NCBI GenBank assembly: GCA_013041835.1
Contig: JABDRH010000313.1
Span: forward strand, 1-12,594
DNA length: 12,594 nucleotides
From: Desulfatitalea sp.
GTDB taxonomy: Bacteria; Desulfobacterota; Desulfobacteria; Desulfobacterales; Desulfosarcinaceae
Direction: 5' to 3'
Made by a program: the position numbers and the translations under genes. A model generated the notes under the pieces. It made no database searches. It had not been told where the DNA came from and saw nothing but the letters and a program-made list of their open reading frames with translations. Positions 1 through 12,594 of the stretch are shown here, piece by piece (the stretch's first letter is position 1; each line of letters starts with the position of its first letter).

Positions 1-850
1 CATCACCCATTATCAATCGTTGGCGATCTTTGGTGCTGTCACATTTGCGGAAAATTCGCTGTTGTGCGTCAATGACGGAGAACTGTTCTTTTTGCCGGCT
101 GAAATGCAGGGTTTCGTGCGAACCAAGGCATAAATACCCGCCATTGACCAGGCTGTCATAAAAGGTCGTGAATACTTTTTGCTGAAGCGCTTTGCTAAAA
201 TAGATCAACACATTACGGCAAACCACGAGGTGTATATCACTGAATGTACCGTCTCTTGCCAGATCGTGGTGAGAAAAAAAGATATTTCGCTTCAAGCGTT
301 GGTGCAATACGGCGCTATCGTAGTTTGCAGTGTAGTAATCGGCAAAATCGCTTTTACCGTCGGCATTATGATAATTTTCGGTATACAGACGCATTTTCTT
401 CAATGGATAGATGCCGGCCTCGGCCTGTTGCAGTGCTTCGGCGCTGTAATCCGTGGCGTAGATGCGCACCTGGTCGTATAGTCCCATTTCAGAGAGAATG
501 ATGGCCATGGAATAGACCTCTTCCCCAGTGGCGCAGCCGGCATGCCAAATCTTAATAAAGGGCTCTTGCCGCAACAAGGGCAATACTTGTGTTTTTAAAG
601 CAATAAAGCAATCCGGGTCTCTAAACATCTCGGTGACATTGATTGAAAAATCTTTAATCAGTTGGTCCGCAAAATGGATCTGGGACCGTACGTTGTCGCG
701 TAGTTGGGCCACCGATGTGATGCCGGTCAGATGCATCCTGCGTTCAATGCGCCGCCAAGCCGATGGTTTTGAATATTCGCGGAAATCATAACCATACAGC
801 CGAAAAATATCTTCAAACAGATCATGAAGTATGGCTTCAATTTTATTCAT
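1..850 (-). CDS. CheR-type protein-glutamate O-methyltransferase (partial at window edge)
   Basis: Probable SAM-dependent methyltransferase of the CheR family, which esterifies glutamates on chemoreceptors or other signalling proteins in the cytoplasm. Translating the minus strand from 850 gives 283 residues with no stop before the window edge, so the extreme C-terminus is missing. Residues 1-75 form the helical CheR N-domain, with the basic stretch WRRIERRMH at 32-40. The SAM motif GCATGEE is at 105-111, followed by YSMAI where the family usually has PYSLAI. ATDYSAEAL at 132-140 and CRNVLIYF at 211-218 are classic CheR blocks. The start overlaps the 3' end of the upstream kinase gene (stop at 843-845). 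There are two adjacent ATGs (853 and 850) and no clear Shine-Dalgarno, which suggests translational coupling. With no chemoreceptor beside it, its target is unknown. Family call is firm, role is inferred. Confidence 0.93.
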   Translation of the reverse strand, partial: MNKIEAILHDLFEDIFRLYGYDFREYSKPSAWRRIERRMHLTGITSVAQLRDNVRSQIHFADQLIKDFSINVTEMFRDPDCFIALKTQVLPLLRQEPFIKIWHAGCATGEEVYSMAIILSEMGLYDQVRIYATDYSAEALQQAEAGIYPLKKMRLYTENYHNADGKSDFADYYTANYDSAVLHQRLKRNIFFSHHDLARDGTFSDIHLVVCRNVLIYFSKALQQKVFTTFYDSLVNGGYLCLGSHETLHFSRQKEQFSVIDAQQRIFRKCDSTKDRQRLIMGD

Positions 851-2393
851 CATCTCGGCGATACAGCCACACCCTTAACATGGACAACAGTTTGGACGGA
901 TCCACCGGCTTGGCAAGATAATCGCTGGCACCGGCCTGCAAGCACTTGGCGCGATCCCCCTTCATGGCCTTGGCGGTCAGTGCGATGATCGGAAGATCCT
1001 TATGGCCTTGCATTCGGCGGATTTGGCGGATGGCTTCATACCCGTCCATTACCGGCATCATGATATCCATGAGCACCAGATCGATTTCAGGGTGCTTGGA
1101 AAGTTTGTCTATTCCGTTTTGACCGTTATTGCCGATGAGGACATGGATGCCTCTGTCTTGAAGCACTTGAGACAAAGCATACACATTGCGCATGTCATCA
1201 TCGACCAGCAGCACAGTCTTTCCTTTCAGAACGGTCTCAGGATCATGGAGCATCTGAATCATCCGGCGTTTTTCCGGAGGTAATTGACTCTCGACACGAT
1301 GCAGGAACAATGCGGTTTCGTCCATCAACCGTTCGGGTGAACGCGCCCCCTTGATCAGTATGCTGTCAGTAAAACGGGCTAATAAGGCCCGCTCCTGGTC
1401 ATCAATGTCATTTGCCGCGCATACCACCACCGGCGTATGCCTGGCCTTTTCCAACTGCTGTAGCTTTTCTAAAAAGGCATGTCCCGACATATCCGGCAGC
1501 GTCATGTCCAGGACCAGACAGTCAAATGGCTGCTGCTCAAGCAAACCGAGGGCTTCCTCGCCGGTCAACGCAATGGTAATGGTCAGGTCGTTGCCTTCAA
1601 CCACTGTTTTGATGGCTTGTGCGTGTTCATCATCACCGCTGACCACCAACAGCCGTTTTTCACTCTTGTCGATAATCTGCTCGATCTTTTTAAAAACATC
1701 CTTCAAAGCGGCCGGTTCAATTGGTTTACGCAAATACCCCGCCGCCCCTCGGACAAGGGCATCAAATTTCTGATCCGCCGCGGTGATAAAGTGGACCGGG
1801 ATATGACGGGTTTTCATGTTGTCCTTAAGCTGTTCCAAAACCATCCAACCATCCATGCCGGGCAGACCGATATCGAGAATAATGCCGCTGGGCGTATATT
1901 GCTCAGCCAGCGCGACACCAGATTCACCATCCATGGCCACCAAGGATTGATAACCACGCGACTTGGCAAAATCGGATAGAATCTTCACAAATTCTTTGTC
2001 ATCCTCGATGATTAAGATGGACCGACCGCCTGGATTGATTTTGTCGCGGTTATTTTGAGTATCTGCCCATTGCTGTGCCGGTGTGCGCGCTGGCGCCGCA
2101 GATTGTTTTTTCTTGGGGATCTCTTGGGATAAAATTGGCTCAGGGGTGGTTTTGACTTGGATATTGCCGGCATGGGGAATTTCCAGGGGCAAAAAAAGTG
2201 AGAAGGTGCTGCCCTTTCCTTTTGCGCTTTGAAACTGGATCTCGCCACCCAAGAGAAAGGCCAGTTCCCGGGATATGGATAGCCCCAATCCGGTCCCTCC
2301 ATATTTGCGATTGATGCTGCCGTCTTCTTGCTGAAAAGCTCTGAAGATCAACTGCTGCTTTTGGGCGTCAATGCCGATACCCGTATCGGTCAC
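843..2393 (-). CDS. Hybrid histidine kinase, C-terminal part: HATPase G boxes plus three receiver domains (downstream of frameshift)
   Basis: This is the 3' portion of one hybrid sensor kinase, out of frame with its 5' portion at 2474-4987. The GTG at 2393 is an artefact start: the frame is open upstream and joins the 5' part near 2492-2498. Residues 3-8 (DTGIGI) are the G1 box and 33-40 (GTGLGLSI) the G2 box of the HATPase domain. Three receiver domains follow. REC1 (about 124-240) has the acidic pair 131-132, phospho-Asp174 and Lys223. REC2 (about 247-365) has Asp254/255, Asp296 and Lys348. REC3 (about 392-508) has Asp398-400, Asp443, Thr473 and Lys495. All three phospho-acceptors are intact, implying a multistep phosphorelay or several outputs. 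The stop overlaps the start of the CheR gene. As a separate protein it would lack the phosphorylatable His and the N box and could not act as a kinase. Confidence 0.9.
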   Translation of the reverse strand: MTDTGIGIDAQKQQLIFRAFQQEDGSINRKYGGTGLGLSISRELAFLLGGEIQFQSAKGKGSTFSLFLPLEIPHAGNIQVKTTPEPILSQEIPKKKQSAAPARTPAQQWADTQNNRDKINPGGRSILIIEDDKEFVKILSDFAKSRGYQSLVAMDGESGVALAEQYTPSGIILDIGLPGMDGWMVLEQLKDNMKTRHIPVHFITAADQKFDALVRGAAGYLRKPIEPAALKDVFKKIEQIIDKSEKRLLVVSGDDEHAQAIKTVVEGNDLTITIALTGEEALGLLEQQPFDCLVLDMTLPDMSGHAFLEKLQQLEKARHTPVVVCAANDIDDQERALLARFTDSILIKGARSPERLMDETALFLHRVESQLPPEKRRMIQMLHDPETVLKGKTVLLVDDDMRNVYALSQVLQDRGIHVLIGNNGQNGIDKLSKHPEIDLVLMDIMMPVMDGYEAIRQIRRMQGHKDLPIIALTAKAMKGDRAKCLQAGASDYLAKPVDPSKLLSMLRVWLYRRDDE

Positions 2394-2473
2394 TTTAAAA
2401 CAGATCGCGTGTTCATGCGGTTTTTGGCGGTGGGAAAAGGTGATATAGGACGAAACCGGCTCGATGGAGAGGG

Positions 2474-4987
2474 TTACCGAACCGTTTTCGGTAAATTTAA
2501 CGCATTGGACAATAAATTGCTTACAATTTGGTGCAGCTTCTGGGGGTCGGTCACCATGGACCGGGCCGCGTTTTCATAGGATTCGATCTTGAAATCGATC
2601 CCATTCTTTTCCGCGGGCACATCGAATTGTTTGTGCACCTCATCGATGAATTTGTCGATTCTAAGCGTTCGGGCCTCAATCGTCATCTGCCCGGCTTCAA
2701 TCTTGGACAGATCCAAAATTTCATTGATCAAAGTCAAAAGCCCGTGGCCGGCTTCATAGATGGTTTGGGCATACTCTATTTGCTTGGTGGTCAGGTTGCC
2801 AATATTGTTTTCGGCCAACATTTTGGACAAAATCAGCAGGCTGTTCAGTGGCGTGCGCAACTCATGGGACATGTTGGCTAAAAATTCAGACTTGTACCTT
2901 CCGGCAAGAACCAACTCTTCTGCTTTCGACTCGAGGTCGGATTTGATCTTTTCCAACTCTTTGTTCTTTACTTCGCTTTCTTCCTTTTGTGCTTCAAGCT
3001 CAGTAGCACTTTTTTGCAGGCGTGCGTTAAAATCCGAAAGCTCGACCTGTTGACTTTCCAACGCTTCATTTTTTTCTTCCAATATGGTTTGCTGTTTTAC
3101 AAGGCGTTCTTCGGATGCCCGCAACTCTTTGGATTGTTGTTCCAGCAAGGCATTGTTTTCTCGCAGCTCCTCTTCTCGAACCTGCAGCTCCTGAGCCTGT
3201 AATTGGGTTTGGTCGAGCAACGCTTTCTTTTGTTTGCGGCTTTGGGCCACTCGGAAAGCAAGCGCAATGGATTCAGCCGATTGCCCTAAAAAAACGTTGA
3301 TATGAGCCTTGGGTTCGTTCATAAAACCCAGCTCCACCACGCCTTCCACACGGTTTTCGTAGACCAGGGGCACGACCACTATCGATCTGGGAGGTGTTTG
3401 TCCCAGCCCGGAGCTCACGGCCATATAGTCAGGAGGCAAGTCGGAAATTTGAATTGTTTTTCGCTCCAAGGCCGCCTGACCAACCGTATTCTCGCCGAAT
3501 TTAAAAACATTGGAAAAACCTTTGCGTTTGTGAAAGGCGTAACTACCGGTCAATTGCAGGGTCTCTTCCTTCAAGACGGTGTAGGCCGCGCCGACCTGCG
3601 CATTTAAATATTGACATAAAAATGCGATGACATTCTTGCTTAATTCGGCAACGTCCACTTCACCACGCATTTGCTCGTTCAATTCGGCCTGGCCGTTCTT
3701 CGACCAATTTTCTTGATGGGTCTTTTGCATGATATTTTTCAGGCTGACGACCATCTCATTGAAGTTGTCGGCAAGGTCGCCGATTTCATTTCTGGCATGA
3801 ATGGAAATGACTTGCTCAAGATCACCGTCAGCGATTTGCCGCGTGGCTTCAGATAAAAGGAGCAGCGGGCGGAACGTTCGCCTTGTCAACGGAACCGAGA
3901 TCAAAACGATCAATACAATCGTGCCCATCAGTAGCCCGGACATGATTATCCCCAGATTTCGAGCTGAAGCAAAAGCATCGACGGTTTCGATCTCCGCGAT
4001 CACCGCCCAGTGGGTTCCCGCGATGATAAGATTTCGATGCACGCCCAGGACTTCCTGGTTAAAAGGATCAGGATAGATTGACGCATCATGCATTATATCA
4101 GAATCCAAAGGTGTATTTTTCACGTGTTCGTCCAGCCACAGTTGGCTCTGACGGGTTTCAACCTTCGTTTTCAGCAGTGCACCCGATTTGTTTTTTAGCT
4201 TGCTGCGAAGCAGCAGGTCTGAACCGAGCAGGTAGATGCGGCTGGCAATAGAATGCCGAAGGAATTTTTGCTGCATGATCGTATCGGTAAGCTGCGTGCT
4301 GAAATTAAGGATGATCAGTCCAATGGTTTGCCCCTCGTCATCCACCAGGATGTTGATTAAAAAGCCGCACTGCGAATTGTTAAAAGGTGCATAGTGCACA
4401 TAATCGGAAAAGACGGGACGCCCGCTTTCCAGAGATTTGCGAGCCGCATGCGACAGTCGCGTATGTTCGAAATCCGTTGCAAACAAATTGGCACCCAAAT
4501 CCGATTTCCCGGCCACCGTGTAGAGAATATTGCCTTTCAAATCCGTCAGCAGAACATCCAAATAGCTATAGTTAAAGCAAAAGGTTTTCAAATCCGAGGC
4601 ATAACGATCTGCCATCTTGGCCCATTTAAAGCTCTTAACAAAACGAGCTGCATCCAAACCGCTCTCGGCATACCCCGTCGACAGCCTCTGGAGAAAATGG
4701 ACATTGGCTTGCTCTTCGGATTCTTGTTTGAGATCCAGCAACATACGATCGAAACGGTATTGAATCTGTTCCGTGCTGAATTCCGCAGCCGCAACAAGCG
4801 CATCCAGGGCAAGATGCGCCAGGCTCGCCCTGGCATTGCGATAACTGATGATGCTAACCACCATCAGAGGAATGACGGATAGGGCCAACAACCAAAAGAG
4901 GATGGTCCGGCTCAACCCATTGCGTCGTAACCAACGCCAGTCGTGTTTTGAAATGGCTTTACCGGAATTGCCATTTTTTTTACCCAT
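2474..4987 (-). CDS. Hybrid histidine kinase, N-terminal part: TM sensor, HAMP, GAF, coiled coil, HisKA (upstream of frameshift)
   Basis: Membrane sensor kinase, 837 residues before a premature stop. TM1 is about 28-48, a large extracytoplasmic Cache-like sensor is 49-343 (for example VLLTDLKGNILYTVAG at 145-160), and TM2 is about 344-366. HAMP is about 367-420, with the NEIGDLADNFNEMV block. A GAF-like domain spans 445-580. A long Glu/Gln/Leu-rich coiled coil runs 585-695. The HisKA H box is SHELRTPLN with phospho-His708. The ATPase domain begins near 770 and reads to the N box (QIVSNLLSNAL, 820-830), then changes to NLPKTVR and stops, where the family expects KFTENG. That continuation is found in the -1 frame and leads into the 843-2393 part, giving a full protein of about 1,380 residues. 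Start: AAGGAG lies 6 nt before the ATG. The gene is otherwise intact, so the lesion is recent, a sequencing error or recoded. Confidence 0.93.
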   Translation of the reverse strand: MGKKNGNSGKAISKHDWRWLRRNGLSRTILFWLLALSVIPLMVVSIISYRNARASLAHLALDALVAAAEFSTEQIQYRFDRMLLDLKQESEEQANVHFLQRLSTGYAESGLDAARFVKSFKWAKMADRYASDLKTFCFNYSYLDVLLTDLKGNILYTVAGKSDLGANLFATDFEHTRLSHAARKSLESGRPVFSDYVHYAPFNNSQCGFLINILVDDEGQTIGLIILNFSTQLTDTIMQQKFLRHSIASRIYLLGSDLLLRSKLKNKSGALLKTKVETRQSQLWLDEHVKNTPLDSDIMHDASIYPDPFNQEVLGVHRNLIIAGTHWAVIAEIETVDAFASARNLGIIMSGLLMGTIVLIVLISVPLTRRTFRPLLLLSEATRQIADGDLEQVISIHARNEIGDLADNFNEMVVSLKNIMQKTHQENWSKNGQAELNEQMRGEVDVAELSKNVIAFLCQYLNAQVGAAYTVLKEETLQLTGSYAFHKRKGFSNVFKFGENTVGQAALERKTIQISDLPPDYMAVSSGLGQTPPRSIVVVPLVYENRVEGVVELGFMNEPKAHINVFLGQSAESIALAFRVAQSRKQKKALLDQTQLQAQELQVREEELRENNALLEQQSKELRASEERLVKQQTILEEKNEALESQQVELSDFNARLQKSATELEAQKEESEVKNKELEKIKSDLESKAEELVLAGRYKSEFLANMSHELRTPLNSLLILSKMLAENNIGNLTTKQIEYAQTIYEAGHGLLTLINEILDLSKIEAGQMTIEARTLRIDKFIDEVHKQFDVPAEKNGIDFKIESYENAARSMVTDPQKLHQIVSNLLSNALNLPKTVR
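2492..2498 (-). other. Frame junction in the kinase gene: in-phase A_AAT_TTA heptamer
   Basis: On the minus strand the codons TTA AAT TTA contain A_AAT_TTA in the X_XXY_YYZ phase of a -1 slippery heptamer. A -1 slip here continues as ACC GAA AAC GGT, exactly the frame of the downstream ATPase and receiver domains. The zero frame stops at 2474-2476. The expected sequence for the conserved Leu-Lys-Phe-Thr would be TTA AAA TTT ACC, so loss of one A from an A4 run explains the same thing and creates the heptamer as a by-product. A short stem (ACCGAA/TTCGGT) follows with essentially no spacer, and I see no upstream Shine-Dalgarno-like stimulator. Confidence 0.8.
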
Positions 4988-5505: not shown

Positions 5506-5518
5506 CTATTCGGGGTTT
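5473..5518 (-). terminator. Possible terminator of the hydrolase gene
   Basis: On the minus strand, AAACCCC (5518-5512, in the last codons of the hydrolase) can pair with GGGGTTT (5481-5475), and the run continues as two more T (5474-5473). The 30-nt loop contains its own small GAAG/CTTC hairpin. The 7-bp stem followed by a T-run suits an intrinsic terminator, but the stem is short and the loop long, so the call is weak. Confidence 0.35.
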
Positions 5519-6534
5519 CTTTCGAATTGCTTAATTAACTCAACGGTTAACGCATCATGCAGACCCGGTGGAATATCGTGTCCCATGTTTGCAAACCATT
5601 TTGTTTTTGAATAGGAGAGCACTGAAGCCAATTTCTTGCTGTGGTCGATGGGAATAAAGGGATCCTTTTGTCCATGAATGACCAAAGACGGAATTTCCAA
5701 TTTCCTTAGCTGCGCATAACGAGAACCAGACCGGCGAACGGCTTGATAATGTTGCGCGAAAGCAAGTGGGTTAAATCCATTCCGTTTCCTTAAATTATAT
5801 AACACCTGCTCGGCCGTTCCTTTGACATCAATTCTGTAGTCAGCTTCACCTCGGAGTATCAGCCGGGCGGCGACATGCATTTTGATTATATTTCTTTCTG
5901 TCGGGAACACGCCATATTTGAATCCGATCTTTGCAAGGTCGAATGCAACTTTCTTTGATGCCCCTTTGATCTTTTTGTCTACGACATTTCCCGACGACAT
6001 GATGGATGTCAAGGTCAGCGTTCGTTTCGGAAAGTGAATCGCAAACGCCTGCGCTACCATTCCTCCCATGGAAACACCGACCAAATGGGCTTTGCTTATC
6101 TGCAGCGCATCAAGGATCAGTTTTGCATCCAAAGCCAAATCTGTAAGAGAATATAGGGGATGTTCCAAATCCGGCATCCAGCCAGACATCCCGGTTCCCC
6201 TATAGTCAAATCTTATTACTTGGTATCCCGCCTCGACCAATAAATCGATGAAACCCTGCGGCCAACTCAAGGCATCGTTGGCGATGCCCATAAATAGAAG
6301 GATAGCGCCCCTGGTCGAAGTGTCTTTACATATCGATTCATACCAAACCGTTGTGTTTTCCGGGTAGACGTATCCGGTCTTTCCCTTCAGAAACTCGGGC
6401 AAATCGGATTTCAAAACACCTCCAATTGTTCTGTCACTATCCTCTGGCAACTGTGGCCCCGAAAAGGATATCATCGCGCTGACGATCGTCAAAAAGGCAA
6501 TGGTAGAAATGCCCACAATCTTAAAAGGTTTCAT
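5506..6534 (-). CDS. Alpha/beta-fold hydrolase, secreted or membrane-anchored
   Basis: A 342-residue alpha/beta hydrolase, probably an esterase or lipase-like enzyme; the substrate cannot be told. Residues 4-24 (KIVGISTIAFLTIVSAMISF region) are hydrophobic after a Lys-containing start, an uncleaved anchor or signal peptide, so the catalytic domain likely lies outside the inner membrane. The oxyanion region is near LLFMGIA (79-85). The FDYRGTGMSG block is at 109-118, nucleophile elbow GVSMGG has Ser155, the acid is Asp291 in GQKDPFIP, and the base is His319 in MGHD. The triad is complete and the length normal for the family. No good Shine-Dalgarno precedes the ATG, so the start is chosen for the signal segment. 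It diverges from the biosynthetic operon across a 644-bp spacer. It could be a thioesterase-like partner or editing enzyme of that pathway, but its membrane targeting argues against that. Confidence 0.88.
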   Translation of the reverse strand: MKPFKIVGISTIAFLTIVSAMISFSGPQLPEDSDRTIGGVLKSDLPEFLKGKTGYVYPENTTVWYESICKDTSTRGAILLFMGIANDALSWPQGFIDLLVEAGYQVIRFDYRGTGMSGWMPDLEHPLYSLTDLALDAKLILDALQISKAHLVGVSMGGMVAQAFAIHFPKRTLTLTSIMSSGNVVDKKIKGASKKVAFDLAKIGFKYGVFPTERNIIKMHVAARLILRGEADYRIDVKGTAEQVLYNLRKRNGFNPLAFAQHYQAVRRSGSRYAQLRKLEIPSLVIHGQKDPFIPIDHSKKLASVLSYSKTKWFANMGHDIPPGLHDALTVELIKQFERNPE

Positions 6535-7178: not shown

Positions 7179-8363
7179 ATGAGCGCATCAATGGAATTTA
7201 ATTTATCAAAAGAGCAAGCTGAAATTTGCCGGACCATTCGAACCCAGGCACGCAAAGAGCTGAACGAGAATGTATTCGAGGATGACGAAAATAGTCACTT
7301 CTCCGGCTATAAATGGCAAATTTGTTGCGAAATGGGAATACAGGGGCTTTCGATTCCCGAAACATACGGCGGCGCCGGTCTCGATATGCTGACGACGGCT
7401 CTGGCAATTGAGAGTTTGGCCTATGCCTGCAAGGATGAAGGGCTCATTTTTTCCATCTGCGCTCAACTGTGCACGGTCGCCATTCCCTTGCTGCATCATG
7501 GTACGCAACGGCAGAAACAAGCCTATTTGCCCGGCATTTCCAACGGTAAGGTGATCGGTGGGAATGCAATTACAGAGCCGGCGGCAGGTTCCGACCCGTC
7601 AGGCATGTTGACAACGGTTATCGCGAAAGGCGATGGATACATCCTTGACGGCACCAAACTGTTTGTAACCAACGCCCCAGTAGCCGACCTTCTGATCGTC
7701 TATGCAAAGCATCCCAATGGTATGAAGATGCTCGACATCTCCGCGTTTCTCGTAGAAAAACGAAATTTTGGGCTTTGGATCGGCCAGTGCTTTCATAAAA
7801 TGGGATTGCGAACCTCTTCCATGAGTGAAATCGTGCTATCCGATTGCAAAGTCCCTGCGAATGCGCTTCTGGGAAAAGAACGGCGTGGCATGGAGGTGTT
7901 CAATACGTCGATGTTCTGGGAGCGGATGATCATGAGCGCCTATCATATCGGGGCCATGGCGCAGCAGTTTGAAACGGTATCGGCCCATGCCCATTCGAGA
8001 AAACAGTTCGGGCGGGCCATCAACCGATTTTCCGCCGTATCAGACAAGCTGATAGACATGAAGATGCGCATCGAGACATCGAAATTGCTCCTTTACAAGG
8101 CTTGCTGGCGTCATGACACGACCGGGCAGGTCCGTATGGCCGATGCCGCCATGGTAAAGCTTTATGTGTCGGAAGCCAGGGTTAAAAGCAGCCTGGATGC
8201 CGTGCAGATTTTCGGGGCCCACGGCTACATGAAGGAAAGCGATGTCGAAAAGCAACTCAGAGACGCCGTTGCCGGCACAATCTATTCGGGGACAAGCGAG
8301 ATACAGCGGAAAATTTTGACCGAAAGTGGGACGATGACCAGTGGGACGATGACCAATGGCTGA
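7179..8363 (+). CDS. Acyl-CoA dehydrogenase-family flavoprotein, putative prolyl-carrier-protein dehydrogenase
   Basis: A 394-residue FAD enzyme of the acyl-CoA dehydrogenase fold. Family blocks in order: ITEPAAGSD (131-139), GTKLFVTNAPVAD (158-170), MGLRTSSMSEIVLSDCKVP (208-226), SRKQFGRAI (273-281), VQIFGAHGY (342-350) and IYSGTSEIQRKIL (368-380). The position that is Glu in most of the family (the E of YEG) is Ser370. Instead Glu248 lies in the FWERMIMSAYHIG helix, where isovaleryl-CoA dehydrogenase has its base. Prolyl-PCP dehydrogenases of the PltE/RedW/PigA type share that arrangement. With a proline-type adenylation enzyme immediately downstream (8-bp overlap), I infer oxidation of prolyl-S-carrier to a pyrrolyl or pyrroline thioester. 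A plain catabolic acyl-CoA or amino-acid-derived substrate is the alternative. ATG 7191 (MEFNLSKEQ) is an equally plausible start; neither has a strong Shine-Dalgarno. Confidence 0.9.
   Translation: MSASMEFNLSKEQAEICRTIRTQARKELNENVFEDDENSHFSGYKWQICCEMGIQGLSIPETYGGAGLDMLTTALAIESLAYACKDEGLIFSICAQLCTVAIPLLHHGTQRQKQAYLPGISNGKVIGGNAITEPAAGSDPSGMLTTVIAKGDGYILDGTKLFVTNAPVADLLIVYAKHPNGMKMLDISAFLVEKRNFGLWIGQCFHKMGLRTSSMSEIVLSDCKVPANALLGKERRGMEVFNTSMFWERMIMSAYHIGAMAQQFETVSAHAHSRKQFGRAINRFSAVSDKLIDMKMRIETSKLLLYKACWRHDTTGQVRMADAAMVKLYVSEARVKSSLDAVQIFGAHGYMKESDVEKQLRDAVAGTIYSGTSEIQRKILTESGTMTSGTMTNG
8325..8354 (+). repeat. Tandem 15-bp duplication at the dehydrogenase/adenylation junction
   Basis: AGTGGGACGATGACC occurs twice head to tail (8325-8339 and 8340-8354), directly before the adenylation gene's ATG at 8356. 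It duplicates SGTMT in the dehydrogenase C-terminal tail and also duplicates the GTGGGA element that is the only Shine-Dalgarno-like sequence for the next gene. The copies are identical, so the duplication is probably recent. Confidence 0.9.
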
Positions 8364-9984
8364 CTTTTTGCTTCATCATCTTTTGGAAAAAACCGCCGCC
8401 GCATATCCGGACAAGACCGCCGTCCGGTCGGATAAAGCGTCCATCAGCTATAAGGTCCTTGCTGAGCGATCCAACCAGGTGGCCAATCAACTCGTCGAAA
8501 AGGGTTTCAAACCTGGAGAAACGGCAGCCGTTCTGCTTTCCAAATCCATTGAATCAATTATTGCCTTTCTGGGCATACTAAAAGCCGGCGGCGCCTATAT
8601 TCCCATGGACCTGCACTATTCTCCGCCGTTAAGAATCAAACGCCTGCTCGAATCGAGCAAAACAAGGTTTCTAATCAGTGATTCCGGCAATCTGAACAAG
8701 CTCTTGTCACAAGTTCCGTTAACCGCCGTCCTGGATCAAATGCAATTGATGTGCATGGATACGATTGGTTTCAGTGATACTTCAACCGGCAGCCAAAAGA
8801 ATCGGTTGGCACATCGCGGCCGATGCTTTTTTTTCGATCCTTCGTCCGACACCGCCCTTTTATATGACCCCGAGTCAACGGACACCGACCTGGCCTATGT
8901 GTTGTATACCTCGGGTTCCACCGGCACGCCCAAGGGCGTCATGATATCCCATTTAAATGCCCTGACCTTCATTAACTGGTCGTTGGCCTGTTTTCAGCCG
9001 TCTCCCGCGGATGTGTTTTCGAGCCATGCGCCGTTTCATTTCGATCTATCGGTTTTTGACATTTATGTATCCATGGCATCCGCCGCATGTCTTTGCATCG
9101 TTCCTTATGCCATTGGCAGCAATCCGCGCGCACTGATCGGCTGGATTGCGAAAAATGAGATTACCTTCTGGTATTCCGTTCCCTCCGTTTGGATTTCCAT
9201 TATCAATCATGCGCGAATCGACGCGGCACAGTTGAGCCGGCTCGGACATATTTTGTTTGCCGGCGAAGTGTTTCCGCCAAAGCACTTGAAACAATTGATC
9301 AAAATCTTGCCCCAGGCTGCGTTCTACAACCTGTATGGCCCTACCGAGACCAATGTCTGCACCTATCACCGTGTCACATCCGCCGATGCGGCAACGGATC
9401 GGCCCGTGCCCATTGGCAAAGCATGCGAAAACACGGACGTTGTCGCTTTGAATGAAAACAACAGGCCGATCGGCGCGGGTGAAGAAGGCGAGCTGATGGT
9501 CAGGGGTTCGGCGGTTACCAGAGGATATTACCGGGATGAAGGCACTACCCAAAATGCCTTTATGAAAAGCCCGCTTTCCCGGCACAACGGGGCCCGGTTA
9601 TATAAAACCGGCGATATCGTGAGAAAACGCCATGATGGCGCATTGATGTATGTGGGCCGAAAAGACCTGATGGTAAAGGTTTCCGGATACAGGATAGAAA
9701 TTCCGGAAGTCGAACACGTGCTTTCGCAATATGCCGCCGTCGCGGAGGCGGTTGTCGTGCCGGTGGTTGACATGGGTAGGGGAACCACGGCATTAACCGC
9801 AGTGATCAAACTCAAAAATGGAGAAAAACTCTCAGTGCTGGAAGCGAAAAACCATCTGGGAAAAATGCTGCCCAGGTACATGATACCCGAAAACATCGAA
9901 AGCATGGATGAACTGCCCAGAACGGCGAACGGAAAAATAGACCGGCCGTTGATAGCCCAAATCTTCCAAAAATGTGAGAATTAA
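8356..9984 (+). CDS. Stand-alone NRPS-type adenylation enzyme, predicted L-proline:carrier-protein ligase
   Basis: A 542-residue ANL-superfamily amino-acid-activating enzyme with no attached carrier or condensation domain. Core motifs: A3 YTSGSTGTPKG (184-194), A4 FHFDLSVFD (227-235), A5 NLYGPTETN (325-333), A7 YKTGDIV (416-422), A8 GRKDLMVKVSGYRIE (434-448) and A10 RTANGKID with the catalytic Lys527. Aligning by eye to GrsA gives pocket residues D230 L231 F234 Y273 L300 A302 L326 V334 C335 K527, that is DLFYLALVCK. I recall this as the proline code of PltF-type enzymes that feed pyrrole biosynthesis. The likely reaction is L-Pro + ATP to prolyl-AMP, then transfer to a separate peptidyl carrier protein, which is not in this window. 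The start overlaps the dehydrogenase stop by 8 bp, which indicates coupled expression and supports joint function with it. Confidence 0.93.
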   Translation: MADFLLHHLLEKTAAAYPDKTAVRSDKASISYKVLAERSNQVANQLVEKGFKPGETAAVLLSKSIESIIAFLGILKAGGAYIPMDLHYSPPLRIKRLLESSKTRFLISDSGNLNKLLSQVPLTAVLDQMQLMCMDTIGFSDTSTGSQKNRLAHRGRCFFFDPSSDTALLYDPESTDTDLAYVLYTSGSTGTPKGVMISHLNALTFINWSLACFQPSPADVFSSHAPFHFDLSVFDIYVSMASAACLCIVPYAIGSNPRALIGWIAKNEITFWYSVPSVWISIINHARIDAAQLSRLGHILFAGEVFPPKHLKQLIKILPQAAFYNLYGPTETNVCTYHRVTSADAATDRPVPIGKACENTDVVALNENNRPIGAGEEGELMVRGSAVTRGYYRDEGTTQNAFMKSPLSRHNGARLYKTGDIVRKRHDGALMYVGRKDLMVKVSGYRIEIPEVEHVLSQYAAVAEAVVVPVVDMGRGTTALTAVIKLKNGEKLSVLEAKNHLGKMLPRYMIPENIESMDELPRTANGKIDRPLIAQIFQKCEN

Positions 9985-9999
9985 CGGGATCTTTACCTT

Positions 10000-11382
10000 A
10001 TGGACCACACATCAATACCGAAAATTGACCAGTTGGCAAGGAAATACAACGAGGCGAACATTCCGCTTTATCTGAGCTACCCCACATCGAACTGGTGGAA
10101 CAAGCCGTTGGATGAAGACGAGTTCGTCAAAACCCATGGCAGCGGCCTTCCGCCCTTTTTGTACTTTCATTTCCCCTATTGCAGGACGCCTTGTTATTAT
10201 TGCATGTGCTACAAATATGTCTCCAATGATACCCGCCATAATGATATTTACATCGATTACCTTCAAAAAGAATTTTCGCATACGCTGGATCGGCTGGGTA
10301 TCAACGGGCAAAACCGTGTCCGGCATGTTCACTGGGGCGGAGGAACGCCTACCTACCTGACCTGCGCTCAAATCGACAAAGTCCACCGCGCCTTGTTCAG
10401 CCGGCTAACCCTGATCGAAGGGGCGGCTGCCGGTAAGTCAATCGAGGCCTATCCGGATGAACAGATACTGACGGAGGAAAAACTTCGGCTTCTTTCGGAT
10501 TTGGGATTTACTGAAATAAGCTTGGGCATACAGGATTTCGATGAGAGAATCCAGAAAACAATCAACCGGAACTGCACCACAAAGACCGTTCACAGGATCA
10601 TCGACCGGGCCAGAAAATTCGGGTTCCGGGTTCATATCGATCTTTGCTATGGCTTGCCGTTTCAGGGTTTAAACGAACTTGAAAAGTCCGTCAAGGAAGT
10701 CATCCGCATGGCGCCGGACAGGGTGGCGCTTTTTACTTACGTCCATTACCCCCATATTTTTCCATTACAACGGAAAATACCTACGGCAAGCATCCCCAAT
10801 TCGTTTATTCGAGTGCTTCTCGCCATGTTGGCGAACGATCTTTTCGATGCACATGGTTTTAAGAAAGTTGGCTATGATCATTACGTCAAGGATAATGACG
10901 TCCTTTACCAGGCACTACTTAATAGAAAAGTAATTCGTGACTTTATGGGATATTCGGTCGACCATAAAAGGGAGTTCATGGGCTTCGGTAACTCGGCGAT
11001 AAGCTTTCCGGGCGATGGATTTTACCAAAACATTCAGTCCCTGAAAAATTATTACCGGGCAGTCGATGACGCTCGGATACCGATCGAAGGCCGCATGACC
11101 CACCAGCTCACACCGGAGGATCGTCTCCGAAACGAGGTGATTCAAAAGAGTATCTTAAGCGATTTCTCGATTCGTAAAAGGGAAATCAACCGGGGGTTTG
11201 ATATACACTTTGACGACTATTTCCGTCCTGAATTGGAAAAACTAGTTCAATTGGAGCATGACGGGCTGGTGGACCTGTCGGATCAAGATACGATTCAGGT
11301 CACACGGATAGGCGCGTACTTTGCGAGGCATATCGCTCATGTGTTCGATACTTACTATGACCGGAGAGAATTTTTGAATTAG
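10000..11382 (+). CDS. HemN-family radical SAM enzyme (coproporphyrinogen III oxidase-like), probably repurposed
   Basis: A 460-residue radical SAM protein, full length for HemN (about 457 in E. coli). The 4Fe-4S motif is C61-x3-C65-x2-C68 with a further C70, the HemN CxxxCxxCxC pattern. SAM-binding features are GGGTPTYL (113-120), SIEAYPDE (147-154), GIQDF (176-180) and HIDLCYGLP (212-220). The C-terminal HemN domain is present (for example QVTRIGAYFARHI at 433-445 and FDTYY at 449-453). The N-terminal HemN segment is recognisable (KYN at 15-17, SYPT at 26-29), but the conserved GPRYTSYPT reads IPLYLSYPT, so the Arg and Thr are lost. It lies 15 bp after the adenylation gene in a biosynthetic operon, which suggests a radical step on a pathway intermediate rather than heme synthesis. 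A genuine HemN cannot be ruled out. The stop codon TAG is completed by the first base of a MITE-like element. Confidence 0.85.
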   Translation: MDHTSIPKIDQLARKYNEANIPLYLSYPTSNWWNKPLDEDEFVKTHGSGLPPFLYFHFPYCRTPCYYCMCYKYVSNDTRHNDIYIDYLQKEFSHTLDRLGINGQNRVRHVHWGGGTPTYLTCAQIDKVHRALFSRLTLIEGAAAGKSIEAYPDEQILTEEKLRLLSDLGFTEISLGIQDFDERIQKTINRNCTTKTVHRIIDRARKFGFRVHIDLCYGLPFQGLNELEKSVKEVIRMAPDRVALFTYVHYPHIFPLQRKIPTASIPNSFIRVLLAMLANDLFDAHGFKKVGYDHYVKDNDVLYQALLNRKVIRDFMGYSVDHKREFMGFGNSAISFPGDGFYQNIQSLKNYYRAVDDARIPIEGRMTHQLTPEDRLRNEVIQKSILSDFSIRKREINRGFDIHFDDYFRPELEKLVQLEHDGLVDLSDQDTIQVTRIGAYFARHIAHVFDTYYDRREFLN

Positions 11383-11540
11383 GGCGCAGGAAATAAATAA
11401 TTCGCCAAGGTTGCGCTGGATTTGGATTCGTCTGTAAGGCACATCCGCCGGTGCATATCTGGATATGTGCCGGTGGATGTAACGCCGCAGACGGACTCAA
11501 AGACAAGCAAGAGTGGGGAATTATTTTTTTTCTGCGCCCT
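11381..11540. mobile_element. MITE-like imperfect palindrome inserted at the radical SAM stop codon
   Basis: About 160 bp whose ends are inverted repeats: 11381-11402 matches the reverse complement of 11519-11540 at 20 of 22 positions (outer AGGGCGCAG / CTGCGCCCT perfect). Between them lies a second long stem (11429-11493), so most of the element can fold on itself. GGGCGCAG (from 11382) and CTGCGCCC (to 11539) are flanked by TTA on both sides, a possible target duplication. Deleting one TTA plus the element gives TTG AAT TAA, a stop at the same codon, and leaves 26 bp to the next gene. There is no transposase frame, which fits a non-autonomous element. The transposase family is unknown; a TA-targeting (IS630/Tc1-like) source is a guess. 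Confidence 0.7.
11429..11493 (+). other. Internal long hairpin of the MITE-like element
   Basis: Core arms 11441-11459 and 11462-11480 (ACATCC... / ...GGATGT) pair along nearly their whole length, with three G-U wobbles in the plus-strand RNA and a tetraloop around CTGG. The stem extends outward through GGC/GCC and CGTCTG (11429-11434) / CAGACG (11488-11493). In the operon transcript this could stabilise the upstream mRNA or lower expression of the ketosynthase gene. The T-run at 11524-11531 comes 30 nt after the stem, so it is not a standard terminator. Confidence 0.75.
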
Positions 11541-11569
11541 TAAAACAAGGATGGTGAGAGGCGTTGATT

Positions 11570-12594
11570 ATGACAGATATCTTTATTCAGTCGGTGAGTC
11601 ATTACGTCCCAGAAGGCCGCTTCACCAACGAGCAGGTGATGAAAATGCTCGAAGATGAAAACAGGGATGTCTTGAAAGAAGAGGAACTCAAGTTCGTTTA
11701 TCACGGCAACAAGCGCAAGCTCGAATTTCTCGGGGGAAACACCCGGTCCTATTGCACCGGAGATGAAGGTTACGTGGATATGGCGGTGCGCGTGGCCACA
11801 GGCGCCCTTGAAAAAGCCGGGATGCGGCCGGGGGACATCGATTGCCTGATAGCCACCGGCATTACGAATCCCATTCGGGAGCCTTCCCTGGCGATTGTCG
11901 TCGCAAATCAGGTTGGCATAAAAAGCGGTCTCTTTTTCGATATCACGGATGCATGCAACGGATTTATGCAGGGCCTTCGGACGGCTGGCCTTTACATCAA
12001 AAGCGGCGAAATCAAAAATGCGCTGGTCGTGGCATGCGAAAATCCACTGGAAATCAAGGATCCTCTTCAGGCCGGTTTTAAGGTCGACAATATCAGTCAG
12101 GTGGACAACCGGTTCAGCAACCTGATGATCGGCTCCGGTGCCGGCGCGGTGCTTGTGTCTGCTGAAGGGCCGAGACGCCGGTTGTTGAATCTGGATGAGA
12201 AAATGGAATCAAACGACTGGGACGCTTCCATCATCACCTTCCCCGACGTCAAGCTTCCGCAAACAAGATTCGGAAAGACCCGCATCCGCGGATTTTGGAC
12301 GGATGCGCGAAACATCTCCTCCGTATGGCGCAAAGGCACGGTCAAATTCGTCCAGGACACGATCGAAAAATGGCGGATTCACCTCGATGAAATCGATATT
12401 TTTCTGATGCATCAGCTTGGAGACAATGTCACCTTTTCCATTCTGAAACAACTCGGTGTTGACAAGCAAAAGGCGCCTATCAACACTTTTAACGCCTATG
12501 GAAACCTGGCAAGTGCAAACATGCCGGTCCTGATGAGTCTGGCTGAGGAAAAAGGGGTGTTGCGGCAAGGCACTTCGGTCATGTTGATCAGTGG
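11570..12594 (+). CDS. KAS III (FabH-like) 3-oxoacyl-ACP synthase family enzyme, partial at the right edge
   Basis: At least 341 residues of a thiolase-fold ketosynthase of the FabH/KAS III family. The C-terminus runs off the window, probably by only 10-20 residues, since SVMLIS is the usual last strand. The Cys-His-Asn triad is complete: Cys129 in ITDACNGFMQ, His281 in LMHQL, and Asn312 in YGNLASANMP. Start: GAGAGG lies 8 nt before the ATG at 11570. Such enzymes condense an acyl-CoA or acyl thioester with malonyl-ACP, and some relatives transfer acyl groups to O or N instead. In this operon it may elongate, or be primed by, a pyrrolyl or fatty acyl thioester; RedP of prodiginine clusters is a precedent for a KAS III beside proline-to-pyrrole genes. 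Its substrate cannot be read from sequence. The gene is separated from the operon only by the MITE-like element. Confidence 0.88.
   Translation, partial: MTDIFIQSVSHYVPEGRFTNEQVMKMLEDENRDVLKEEELKFVYHGNKRKLEFLGGNTRSYCTGDEGYVDMAVRVATGALEKAGMRPGDIDCLIATGITNPIREPSLAIVVANQVGIKSGLFFDITDACNGFMQGLRTAGLYIKSGEIKNALVVACENPLEIKDPLQAGFKVDNISQVDNRFSNLMIGSGAGAVLVSAEGPRRRLLNLDEKMESNDWDASIITFPDVKLPQTRFGKTRIRGFWTDARNISSVWRKGTVKFVQDTIEKWRIHLDEIDIFLMHQLGDNVTFSILKQLGVDKQKAPINTFNAYGNLASANMPVLMSLAEEKGVLRQGTSVMLIS

Follow-up and report, generated by a model that had tools for sequence, protein, structure and literature searches.

A predicted thiotemplated proline-oxidation cassette with a HemN-like radical SAM protein and a KAS III in Desulfatitalea sp.

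Gene layout and a probable continuation on a second contig

The window analyzed here is a 12,594-nucleotide stretch of DNA that corresponds to an entire contig (C247) of a Desulfatitalea sp. genome. Four co-directional open reading frames (ORFs), encoding an ACAD-family flavoenzyme, an adenylation enzyme, a HemN-like radical SAM protein, and a KAS III, occupy positions 7179 to 12,594 of the plus strand. A preliminary description of this DNA had placed these genes in one operon, and we recover all four at the stated place. The features are as follows:

7179–8363, plus strand: ACAD-family prolyl-carrier-protein dehydrogenase, assigned from PDB matches, a tree, and a WER motif; the ATG at 7191 is a possible start
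8356–9984, plus strand: stand-alone L-proline adenylation enzyme, assigned from its pocket compared with 6o6e and from TIGR01733
10,000–11,382, plus strand: full-length HemN-like radical SAM protein of a separate subfamily, assigned from TIGR00538, 1olt, and residue replacements
11,382–11,539, no strand assigned: 158-base MITE-like insertion with inverted arms, TTA on both sides, and dispersed copies
11,570–12,594, plus strand: KAS III-like condensing enzyme or acyltransferase (PF08545 and PF08541), truncated by the contig end

Every Pfam domain assigned in the four proteins exceeds its gathering score. The start of the adenylation ORF overlaps the end of the ACAD ORF by 8 bases, and the KAS III start is placed at the ATG at 11,570, with the listed TTG at 11,564 as a longer alternative. 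Scans for Rfam families and tRNAs found nothing in the window, and PADLOC returned nothing for it except a weak 22-bit match to the HemN-like protein.

The 187 bases separating the HemN-like and KAS III genes consist mostly of a 158-base dispersed repeat, and the operon is thus interrupted by an insertion at this point. The element, which has inverted arms flanked at both ends by TTA, is found at 41 distinct genomic places, the window copy included, and its first base is the final base of the HemN stop codon. It is absent from the HemN–KAS III junction of a relative, G405, and lies outside the pathway considered below. This repeat went unreported in the preliminary description.

No carrier protein was seen within the window, i.e., on the whole of contig C247. 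One had been predicted downstream, with a GxDS motif; a carrier gene is indeed found after KAS III, on contig C53 across a predicted contig junction, but its motif is ISSL. The start of C53 (L116:1-1985) reads LLW-stop, followed by the carrier protein and then a DXS-like thiamine enzyme, and this LLW-stop looks like the end of the window KAS III, which probably continues onto C53. The link rests on gene content and order (synteny with G405), with no overlapping DNA and approximately ten codons missing between the contigs. The carrier gene (L116:41-292) encodes the motif IISSL, in which the putative phosphopantetheine serine sits in SSL instead of DSL, and its PF00550 score of 22 bits is barely over the cut-off of 20.8. 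Within the aligned portion, the carrier shares 61% identity with the one that follows KAS III in G405, and the DXS-like enzymes of the two genomes are 79% identical; from these matches, the order KAS III, carrier, DXS-like enzyme is the same in both. The carrier and the gene order are read directly from the sequence in relatives and, for the window, across a junction that we infer. There is one strong carrier match in the window's genome, which is 86.9% complete, whereas the clorobiocin pathway uses two; the loci of the Paenibacillus family described below carry two or more.

Predicted proline activation and oxidation

The adenylation enzyme harbors the Pfam domains AMP-binding and AMP-binding_C and scores 371 bits against TIGR01733, above the cut-off of 317. 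Its pocket, DLFYLALVC, agrees at 8 of 9 positions with the DLLYLALVC of the solved L-proline ligase 6o6e, presumably PltF, and the nine residues are identical in all eight clustered homologues. The earlier assignment as a proline-type stand-alone adenylation enzyme is thus well founded.

The flavoenzyme contains ACAD N, M, and C domains, and its best matches in the PDB are 4irn (319 bits), a prolyl-ACP dehydrogenase, 5zw0 (287 bits), and 6cxt_B (263 bits), together with 6af6; 5zw0 and 6af6 are two forms of an L-prolyl-carrier dehydrogenase. We take 4irn to be AnaB and 5zw0 to be PltE. The 6cxt_B chain is Bmp3, and a conserved catalytic Glu is described as essential in such dehydrogenases (PMC10849742); through the alignment of PDB matches, we equate this residue with the Glu of a WER motif that is retained in 8/8 loci. 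In a tree that also contains five ACAD paralogues from the window's genome, which has 15 other ACAD matches in total, the window protein groups with AnaB and PltE with a support of 100/100 and the paralogues lie apart, in agreement with its initial description as a prolyl-PCP-dehydrogenase-like protein. All eight cluster ACADs fall on one side of a 99/99 branch and form a clade of their own, distinct from AnaB. Pocket and tree together also agree with the proposed match of the two enzymes to a PltF/PltE or AnaC/AnaB pair.

An ACAD next to an AMP ligase is a common pairing in catabolic operons, and this, like the 15 other ACAD matches in the genome, counts toward a reading in which the two genes serve fatty acid or amino acid catabolism and only superficially resemble a proline cassette. 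The proline pocket and the ACAD tree strongly oppose such a role, the carrier protein on C53 also argues against it, and we consider it extremely improbable.

A separate question is which product the dehydrogenase forms. The best NCBIfam model is PigA at 413 bits, under its cut-off of 500, and the RedW model gives 340 bits, under 650; the ACAD therefore does not reach the curated cut-off for the pyrrole-forming PltE/PigA/RedW subfamily (PigA, RedW). The enzyme could be AnaB-like and remove two electrons, stopping at a pyrroline that the KAS III would extend as a starter unit. The higher score of 4irn over 5zw0 (319 versus 287 bits) points in this direction, and the thiamine enzyme could plausibly use the reactive imine of a pyrroline as its acceptor. 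Against this, the best NCBIfam model, PigA, is a prodigiosin-path enzyme, and in the tree AnaB is not adjacent to the cluster clade and PltE lies on a long branch. We rate formation of a pyrroline with KAS III extension at somewhat less than even odds, and the proposal developed below accommodates either a pyrroline or a pyrrole.

A diverged HemN-like subfamily that recurs with the ACAD clade

The only Pfam domain in the third protein is Radical_SAM, with no match to a cobalamin domain. It scores 355 bits against TIGR00538 (curated hemN; cut-off 325), its best NCBIfam models are HemN-type, and it matches 1olt with 259 bits; the homology spans residues 12 to 455, N-terminal region included, and a CxxxCxxCxC motif is present. 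Despite this shared homology, the protein differs from HemN at R22, T24, I211, and Q311. None of 50 subfamily members retains the equivalents of R22, T24, or Q311, whereas R22 and T24 are each found in 79/79, and Q311 in 78/79, other HemN sequences, which are assumed to be canonical. These derive from a scan of genome contigs with HemN alignment A1, which yielded at least 591 confirmed relatives, mostly other HemN, of which 80 were used; the one of these not counted among the 79, L012, belongs to the HemN-like subfamily. Among 116 HemN-like homologues, R22 and T24 are kept in none of the 108 that cover the region and Gln311 in two of 116. Residues Tyr55, Cys61, Cys65, Cys68, Glu149, Gln178, Arg190, and Asp214 are invariant in a 44-row alignment, and the SAM-site equivalents Tyr56 and an Asp at position 209 are retained. 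The Tyr56 equivalent is described as a SAM-site residue in PMC12871812, and Asp209 would correspond to the SAM-site residue Asp196 of NocN described there. These SAM-site residues are a feature shared with HemN and the class C radical SAM methylases (NocN, C10P); NocN, as far as this source describes it, lacks the N-terminal trip-wire, whereas the HemN-like protein has the region in altered form.

On these sequence grounds, the HemN-like proteins are a separate, diverged subfamily and not ordinary HemN. The earlier description of the gene product as a HemN-like radical SAM protein is refined accordingly: it passes the hemN model but is no ordinary HemN, with R22, T24, and Q311 replaced. Given that these residues are replaced while the cluster cysteines and SAM-site residues are kept, the enzyme is probably no coproporphyrinogen oxidase and probably modifies a carrier-bound, proline-derived ring. 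None of the residues compared in the subfamily fixes the reaction, and we propose C-methylation only tentatively, with the balance tilted against it.

That the gene is simply the host's anaerobic coproporphyrinogen III oxidase, present in the operon by chance, is very unlikely. It does pass the curated model and retain CxxxCxxCxC, and the sole further match when it was searched against the genome, on contig C44, is 27% identical and not a full-length HemN; the loss of R22, T24, and Q311 across the entire subfamily and its co-occurrence with the ACAD clade argue otherwise. Of 119 ACAD rows in a large protein database, 23, every one of them among the first 63, share the exact longest-contig size with one of the 116 HemN rows, compared with a mean of 0.6 and a maximum of 3 in 400 shifted controls. 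ACAD, adenylation, HemN-like, and KAS III genes also occur together in 8/8 loci examined from distant bacteria, five of which are from the family of Paenibacillus piscarius. In 5/5 of these Paenibacillus-family loci, an ETF alpha gene is next to KAS III or separated from it by a single small gene (ETF domains Pfam-confirmed for G723 only). Other neighbors vary and include a FAAL, a second ligase, an NRPS, and the DXS-like enzyme, and the end products therefore probably differ between loci. A protein of 344/347 residues that falls in no Pfam family, and whose G466 form falls in no NCBIfam family either, is common to G466 and the Paenibacillus-family loci.

A single KAS III query of a phylum sample matched 1 of 395 genomes, the window's own; alignment A2 matched 3 of 291 in the order sample, as did the HemN query in the class sample (3/291). 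For G723, the corresponding counts were 1/398 in its phylum (G723 itself) and 5/275 in its family (G723 included); in the family of G405, the count was 1/2, G405 itself. In plasmids, identities are at most 45.3% for the 15 of 100 ACAD matches listed and 33.5 to 35.5% for the 15 of 19 HemN matches listed, the latter called hemN where annotated. The KAS III alignment gave 19 pattern matches against viral contigs, none of which was confirmed.

Condensing enzyme, DXS-like enzyme, and proposed pathway

The KAS III contains PF08545 (ACP_syn_III) and PF08541 (the C domain). Queried without its last residues, it scores 111 bits against curated fabH (cut-off 292) and 144 bits against its best NCBIfam model, PRK09258 (cut-off 285). 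A Cys129-His281-Asn312 triad, of the kind that marks decarboxylating condensing enzymes, is kept in 16/16 aligned rows representing 15 distinct proteins. CloN2 of the clorobiocin pathway is itself KAS III-like, and the enzyme may likewise be an acyltransferase that moves the ring onto a different carrier or acceptor with no extension, in which case the operon would only build and transfer it. In a similarly composed pathway, CloN2 transfers the pyrrole from its first carrier to CloN1, a second one (PMC11218499). Against this, the triad is complete in every row, and the window's own operon yielded no second carrier; we rate simple transfer as less likely than not.

Of 30 PDB sequences matched by the DXS-like enzyme on C53, the top 13 are DXS, but it scores 411 bits, under the dxs cut-off of 466, and differs from DXS in three residues. 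Pro and Phe align with H49 and R420 of the Escherichia coli enzyme, and the R478 position is occupied by Tyr or by His, according to the alignment used; we take R420 and R478 to be phosphate-binding arginines of DXS. Among the loci compared, this enzyme occurs in the window's genome and in G405 alone.

We propose, with a probability of about 0.78, that the operon encodes a thiotemplated proline-oxidation cassette and that the HemN-like protein and KAS III belong to its pathway. In step 1, the adenylation enzyme would form prolyl-AMP and proline would be loaded onto the small carrier encoded on C53. In step 2, the ACAD-type flavoenzyme would oxidize the prolyl-S-carrier, giving a thioester of either a pyrroline or a pyrrole, with an ETF as electron acceptor. 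Sequence evidence for these two steps is strong, and we infer steps 3 to 5. The HemN-like enzyme may then modify the unsaturated ring (step 3), with no porphyrin decarboxylation; the chemistry we favor would be transfer of one carbon to an sp2 carbon of the ring, as in C-methylation or a related reaction. The KAS III may extend the thioester with malonate or transfer it to another acceptor (step 4), and the DXS-like thiamine enzyme may add or join a further unit (step 5). The outcome would be conversion of L-proline to a modified five-membered nitrogen ring on a carrier protein.

The prodigiosin and pyoluteorin pyrrole modules (PigI-PigG-PigA, PltF-PltL-PltE, and RedM-RedO-RedW) have the adenylation pocket and dehydrogenase family in common with the window, which misses the PigA and RedW cut-offs; we know of no HemN-like protein in them. 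The AnaB/AnaC/AnaD proline starter module of cyanobacterial anatoxin, assumed to feed polyketide extension (PMC3252866), includes the solved prolyl-ACP dehydrogenase that is the best match of the window ACAD, and the description of the module there names neither a HemN-like protein nor a KAS III. The closest analogue is the clorobiocin/coumermycin pyrrole cassette (CloN1–CloN7), in which CloN4 activates proline, CloN5 is the carrier, CloN3 is the ACAD, and CloN6 is a radical SAM enzyme thought to methylate the pyrrole (PMC11218499, PMC8992657, PMC10849742). As described in these sources, its adenylation/PCP/ACAD set, radical SAM enzyme, and transfer enzyme follow a logic akin to that of the window cassette; CloN6, however, is suspected to be cobalamin-dependent, whereas the window enzyme is HemN-like. 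The window set probably adds a DXS-like enzyme, and a second carrier was not among the strong matches in the window's 86.9%-complete genome. The preliminary description knew of no pathway that adds HemN and KAS III to the proline pair. We likewise found the combination undescribed in the titles and abstract starts of open-licence literature, with publication elsewhere possible, but clorobiocin is similar in logic.

These findings tie to proline-derived ring chemistry a HemN subfamily still labeled coproporphyrinogen III oxidase in several database sources, in an operon that is small and testable. A genome-mining signature follows, namely mostly PLYLSYP for PRYTSYP and Met for Gln311, plus the ACAD clade. 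If one-carbon transfer on a carrier-bound ring is correct, the enzyme would parallel the pyrrole methylase CloN6 but work without cobalamin, and the ring would be, to our knowledge, a new substrate type for HemN-like enzymes. More speculatively, and on balance doubtfully, the clade may have left heme synthesis in diverse bacteria and become a radical SAM enzyme, independent of cobalamin, for the alkylation (methylation or cyclopropanation) of a carrier-bound proline-derived pyrrole or pyrroline, from which KAS III and the DXS-like enzyme would build small heterocyclic metabolites of an undescribed class.

Layout of the operon and its flanks

The window is contig C247 in full, from a genome assembled into 693 contigs and 86.9% complete. 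The four genes of the operon lie on the plus strand, with ORF and Pfam assignments in agreement for each; the minus-strand alpha/beta hydrolase, histidine-kinase, and CheR genes to their left are not counted in the operon.

Features of C247 and of locus L116 on C53, another contig of the same genome
2-853, minus strand: CheR-type methyltransferase, truncated by the contig start and adjoining the kinase genes
843-4987, minus strand: HAMP-GAF-HisKA ORF and adjoining ORF with HATPase and three receiver domains (Pfam)
5506-6534, minus strand: alpha/beta hydrolase, transcribed away from the operon
7179-8363, plus strand: ACAD-type dehydrogenase (ACAD)
8356-9984, plus strand: AMP-binding adenylation enzyme
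10000-11382, plus strand: HemN-like radical SAM protein
11382-11539, between the HemN and KAS III genes: MITE-like element, 158 bases, with inverted arms and TTA on both sides
11570 to contig end, plus strand: KAS III
L116:41-292, C53: carrier protein, after Leu-Leu-Trp-stop codons
L116:321-1985, C53: DXS-like enzyme, 554 residues, after the carrier
C53, about 200 bases past the DXS-like enzyme: carbonic anhydrase gene

The nearest NCBIfam models to the hydrolase are macrolide esterases, with scores far under cut-off. The ORF pair at 843-4987 resembles one hybrid histidine kinase broken by a frameshift, either real or assembly-made. The MITE-like element gives 63 match rows that reduce to 41 distinct places genome-wide, including 11382-11539, and is absent from the HemN/KAS III junction of G405, a relative from the same order.

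Predicted proline activation and oxidation, and the carrier protein

Among single-domain solved structures, the adenylation enzyme has its top match in the L-proline ligase 6o6e, which we take to be PltF, annotated as L-proline--[L-prolyl-carrier protein] ligase; multidomain NRPS chains reach a higher total score, and 6o6e ranks first among structures when the pocket region alone is compared. At nine pocket positions read from the 6o6e alignment, and picked according to the known specificity code, the window sequence is DLFYLALVC versus DLLYLALVC in 6o6e, and DLFYLALVC is found in all eight cluster homologues. The ACAD best matches the prolyl-ACP dehydrogenase 4irn (319 bits), followed by the L-prolyl-carrier dehydrogenases 5zw0 (287 bits) and 6af6 (284 bits) and then 6cxt_B (263 bits), with remaining ACAD structures at ≤232 bits. 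We take 4irn to be AnaB and 5zw0 and 6af6 to be PltE. 6CXT is named as Bmp3 in PMC10849742. The NCBIfam PigA model scores 413 bits against the window ACAD, under its cut-off of 500. We built a maximum-likelihood tree of 51 rows, which include 36 homologues hand-picked among the 120 listed from the database. A branch with 99/99 support has all eight cluster ACADs on one side; together with AnaB and PltE they belong to a group split (100/100) from five of the 15 other ACAD matches in the window genome. Long branches leave the exact places of PltE and three of these paralogues uncertain. All eight cluster ACADs retain the catalytic Glu motif. Both the proline-type stand-alone adenylation enzyme and the prolyl-PCP-dehydrogenase-like flavoprotein of the preliminary description are confirmed at the level of sequence.

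That description had also predicted a carrier protein downstream, and one lies on C53. A search of the window's own genome with the G405 carrier matched C53 bases 53-277 (61% identity, E 9e-25), the second-best of three matches having an E value of 0.02. C53 begins with Leu-Leu-Trp-stop codons, resembling KAS III relatives that end in Trp; about 10 KAS III codons are absent between C247 and C53, so we infer the junction. In G405, the gene order is FAAL, ACAD, adenylation enzyme, HemN, KAS III, carrier, and DXS-like enzyme, with identities to the window and C53 proteins of 72% (ACAD), 62% (adenylation enzyme), 68% (HemN), 77% (KAS III), 59% (carrier, whole alignment), and 79% (DXS-like). The operon is real, and with the proline pocket, the ACAD clade, and the carrier on C53, its interpretation as a proline-derived cassette holds, the predicted ring being a pyrroline or a pyrrole, depending on whether the oxidation takes two or four electrons.

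Conservation and accessory genes

ACAD, adenylation enzyme, HemN, and KAS III occur within about 12 kb in all eight loci examined (the window; G405 and G466, which belong to its order; and five loci of the Paenibacillus piscarius family, with L012 the named P. piscarius locus), a figure that describes linkage given one gene and not natural frequency, since loci were found via HemN or KAS III. With C53 taken as the continuation of the window, 8/8 have a carrier adjoining HemN or KAS III. Genomes carrying the gene set are rare, with 3/291 in the order sample, 3/291 in the class sample, and 5/275 in the Paenibacillus-family sample, counts that include the window's own genome and G723, a Paenibacillus-family genome. 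As an independent check, 23 of 119 ACAD rows in the protein database have a longest contig exactly equal in length to that of one of 116 HemN rows (400 shifted controls: mean 0.6, maximum 3), as do five of nine KAS III rows, the window itself among the five. Close KAS III relatives are few (nine proteins at E ≤1e-20), in a search that depends on shared five-residue words and missed the 36%-identical Paenibacillus form. Among the sources named for the HemN homologues are Proteobacteria, Spirochaetales, Clostridiales, Bacillota, and one Pacearchaeota MAG.

Accessory genes vary between loci. FAAL is present in G405 and G466, and none was seen beside the window operon; a FAAL search of the window's genome gave one match, 32% identical, on contig C640. 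This locus, L117, is a single open frame of 1260 residues (FAAL-like ligase, PP-binding carrier, and ketosynthase) that ends at the contig end, and is another polyketide locus in this genome. A second ligase and a 344/347-residue protein without a Pfam match are found in G466 and the Paenibacillus-family loci, copies of the latter at L095:14771-15814 (G466 cluster) and L012:1311-2345 being 35% identical to each other. ETF alpha adjoins KAS III in 5/5 Paenibacillus-family loci. G723 encodes an A-T-BtrH NRPS with the pocket DLYNFSLVW, presumably cysteine-like, together with HMG-CoA-synthase-like, KS, and tandem AT genes, a set that we take to mark a trans-AT PKS cluster. In the P. piscarius loci L012 and L101, the cassette has HMG-CoA-synthase-like, KS, tandem-AT, and cysteine-like NRPS genes as neighbors, which suggests a trans-AT polyketide carrying a proline-derived unit.

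Predicted roles of the HemN-like, KAS III, and thiamine enzymes

KAS III scores 111 bits against the fabH cut-off of 292, which places it far from FabH proper, but Cys129, His281, and Asn312 are present in 16/16 rows representing 15 distinct proteins. The DXS-like enzyme scores under the dxs cut-off. Relative to E. coli DXS (numbering counted off the alignment), it has H49 replaced by Pro, R420 by Phe, and R478 by Tyr or His (alignment-dependent), while retaining the equivalents of E370, R398, and H431; given the roles of these residues, the replacements indicate that its acceptor is probably not glyceraldehyde 3-phosphate.

The HemN-like protein clears the hemN model. We compared 79 other HemN sequences, the remainder kept from the genome scan, with 50 of the subfamily, of which 44 come from the 116 database homologues and six from the loci. 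R22 and T24 are each present in 79/79 of the others versus 0/50 of the subfamily, position 311 is Gln in 78/79 versus Met in 50/50, position 211 is Ile in 72/79 versus Cys in 50/50, and position 149 is Arg in 75/79 versus Asp in 49/50. Across all 116 homologues, R22 or T24 occurs in 0 of the 108 covering the region, position 311 is Met in 114 and Gln in two, and Cys is found at 211 in 113. The cluster cysteines and the Tyr56, Glu145, Gln172, Arg184, and Asp209 positions are retained (Gln172 in 114/116). Two distant homologues, P0117 and P0124, combine Gln at 311 with Gly at position 22 and Leu at position 24; these two are possible intermediates linking ordinary HemN to the subfamily.

In PMC12871812, HemN Tyr56 is described as stacking on the second SAM, NocN Asp196 as touching both SAMs, and HemN residues 4-35, within which R22 and T24 fall, as a trip-wire that may serve substrate association or release. 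Because SAM-site residues are kept and the trip-wire R22 and T24 are replaced, two-SAM chemistry is probably maintained with altered substrate recognition. Our preferred reading is that the enzyme would transfer one carbon onto the proline-derived ring, since class C enzymes are described in PMC12871812 as adding one carbon to sp2 carbons, and CloN6 is thought, in PMC11218499, PMC8992657, and PMC10849742, to methylate the clorobiocin pyrrole prior to sugar attachment. The overall logic of the operon is similar to that of the clorobiocin cassette. New relative to the preliminary description are the placement of the carrier and thiamine enzyme on C53, a HemN subfamily that is distinct from the heme enzyme as judged from its residues, and the conservation of the gene set in distant bacteria.
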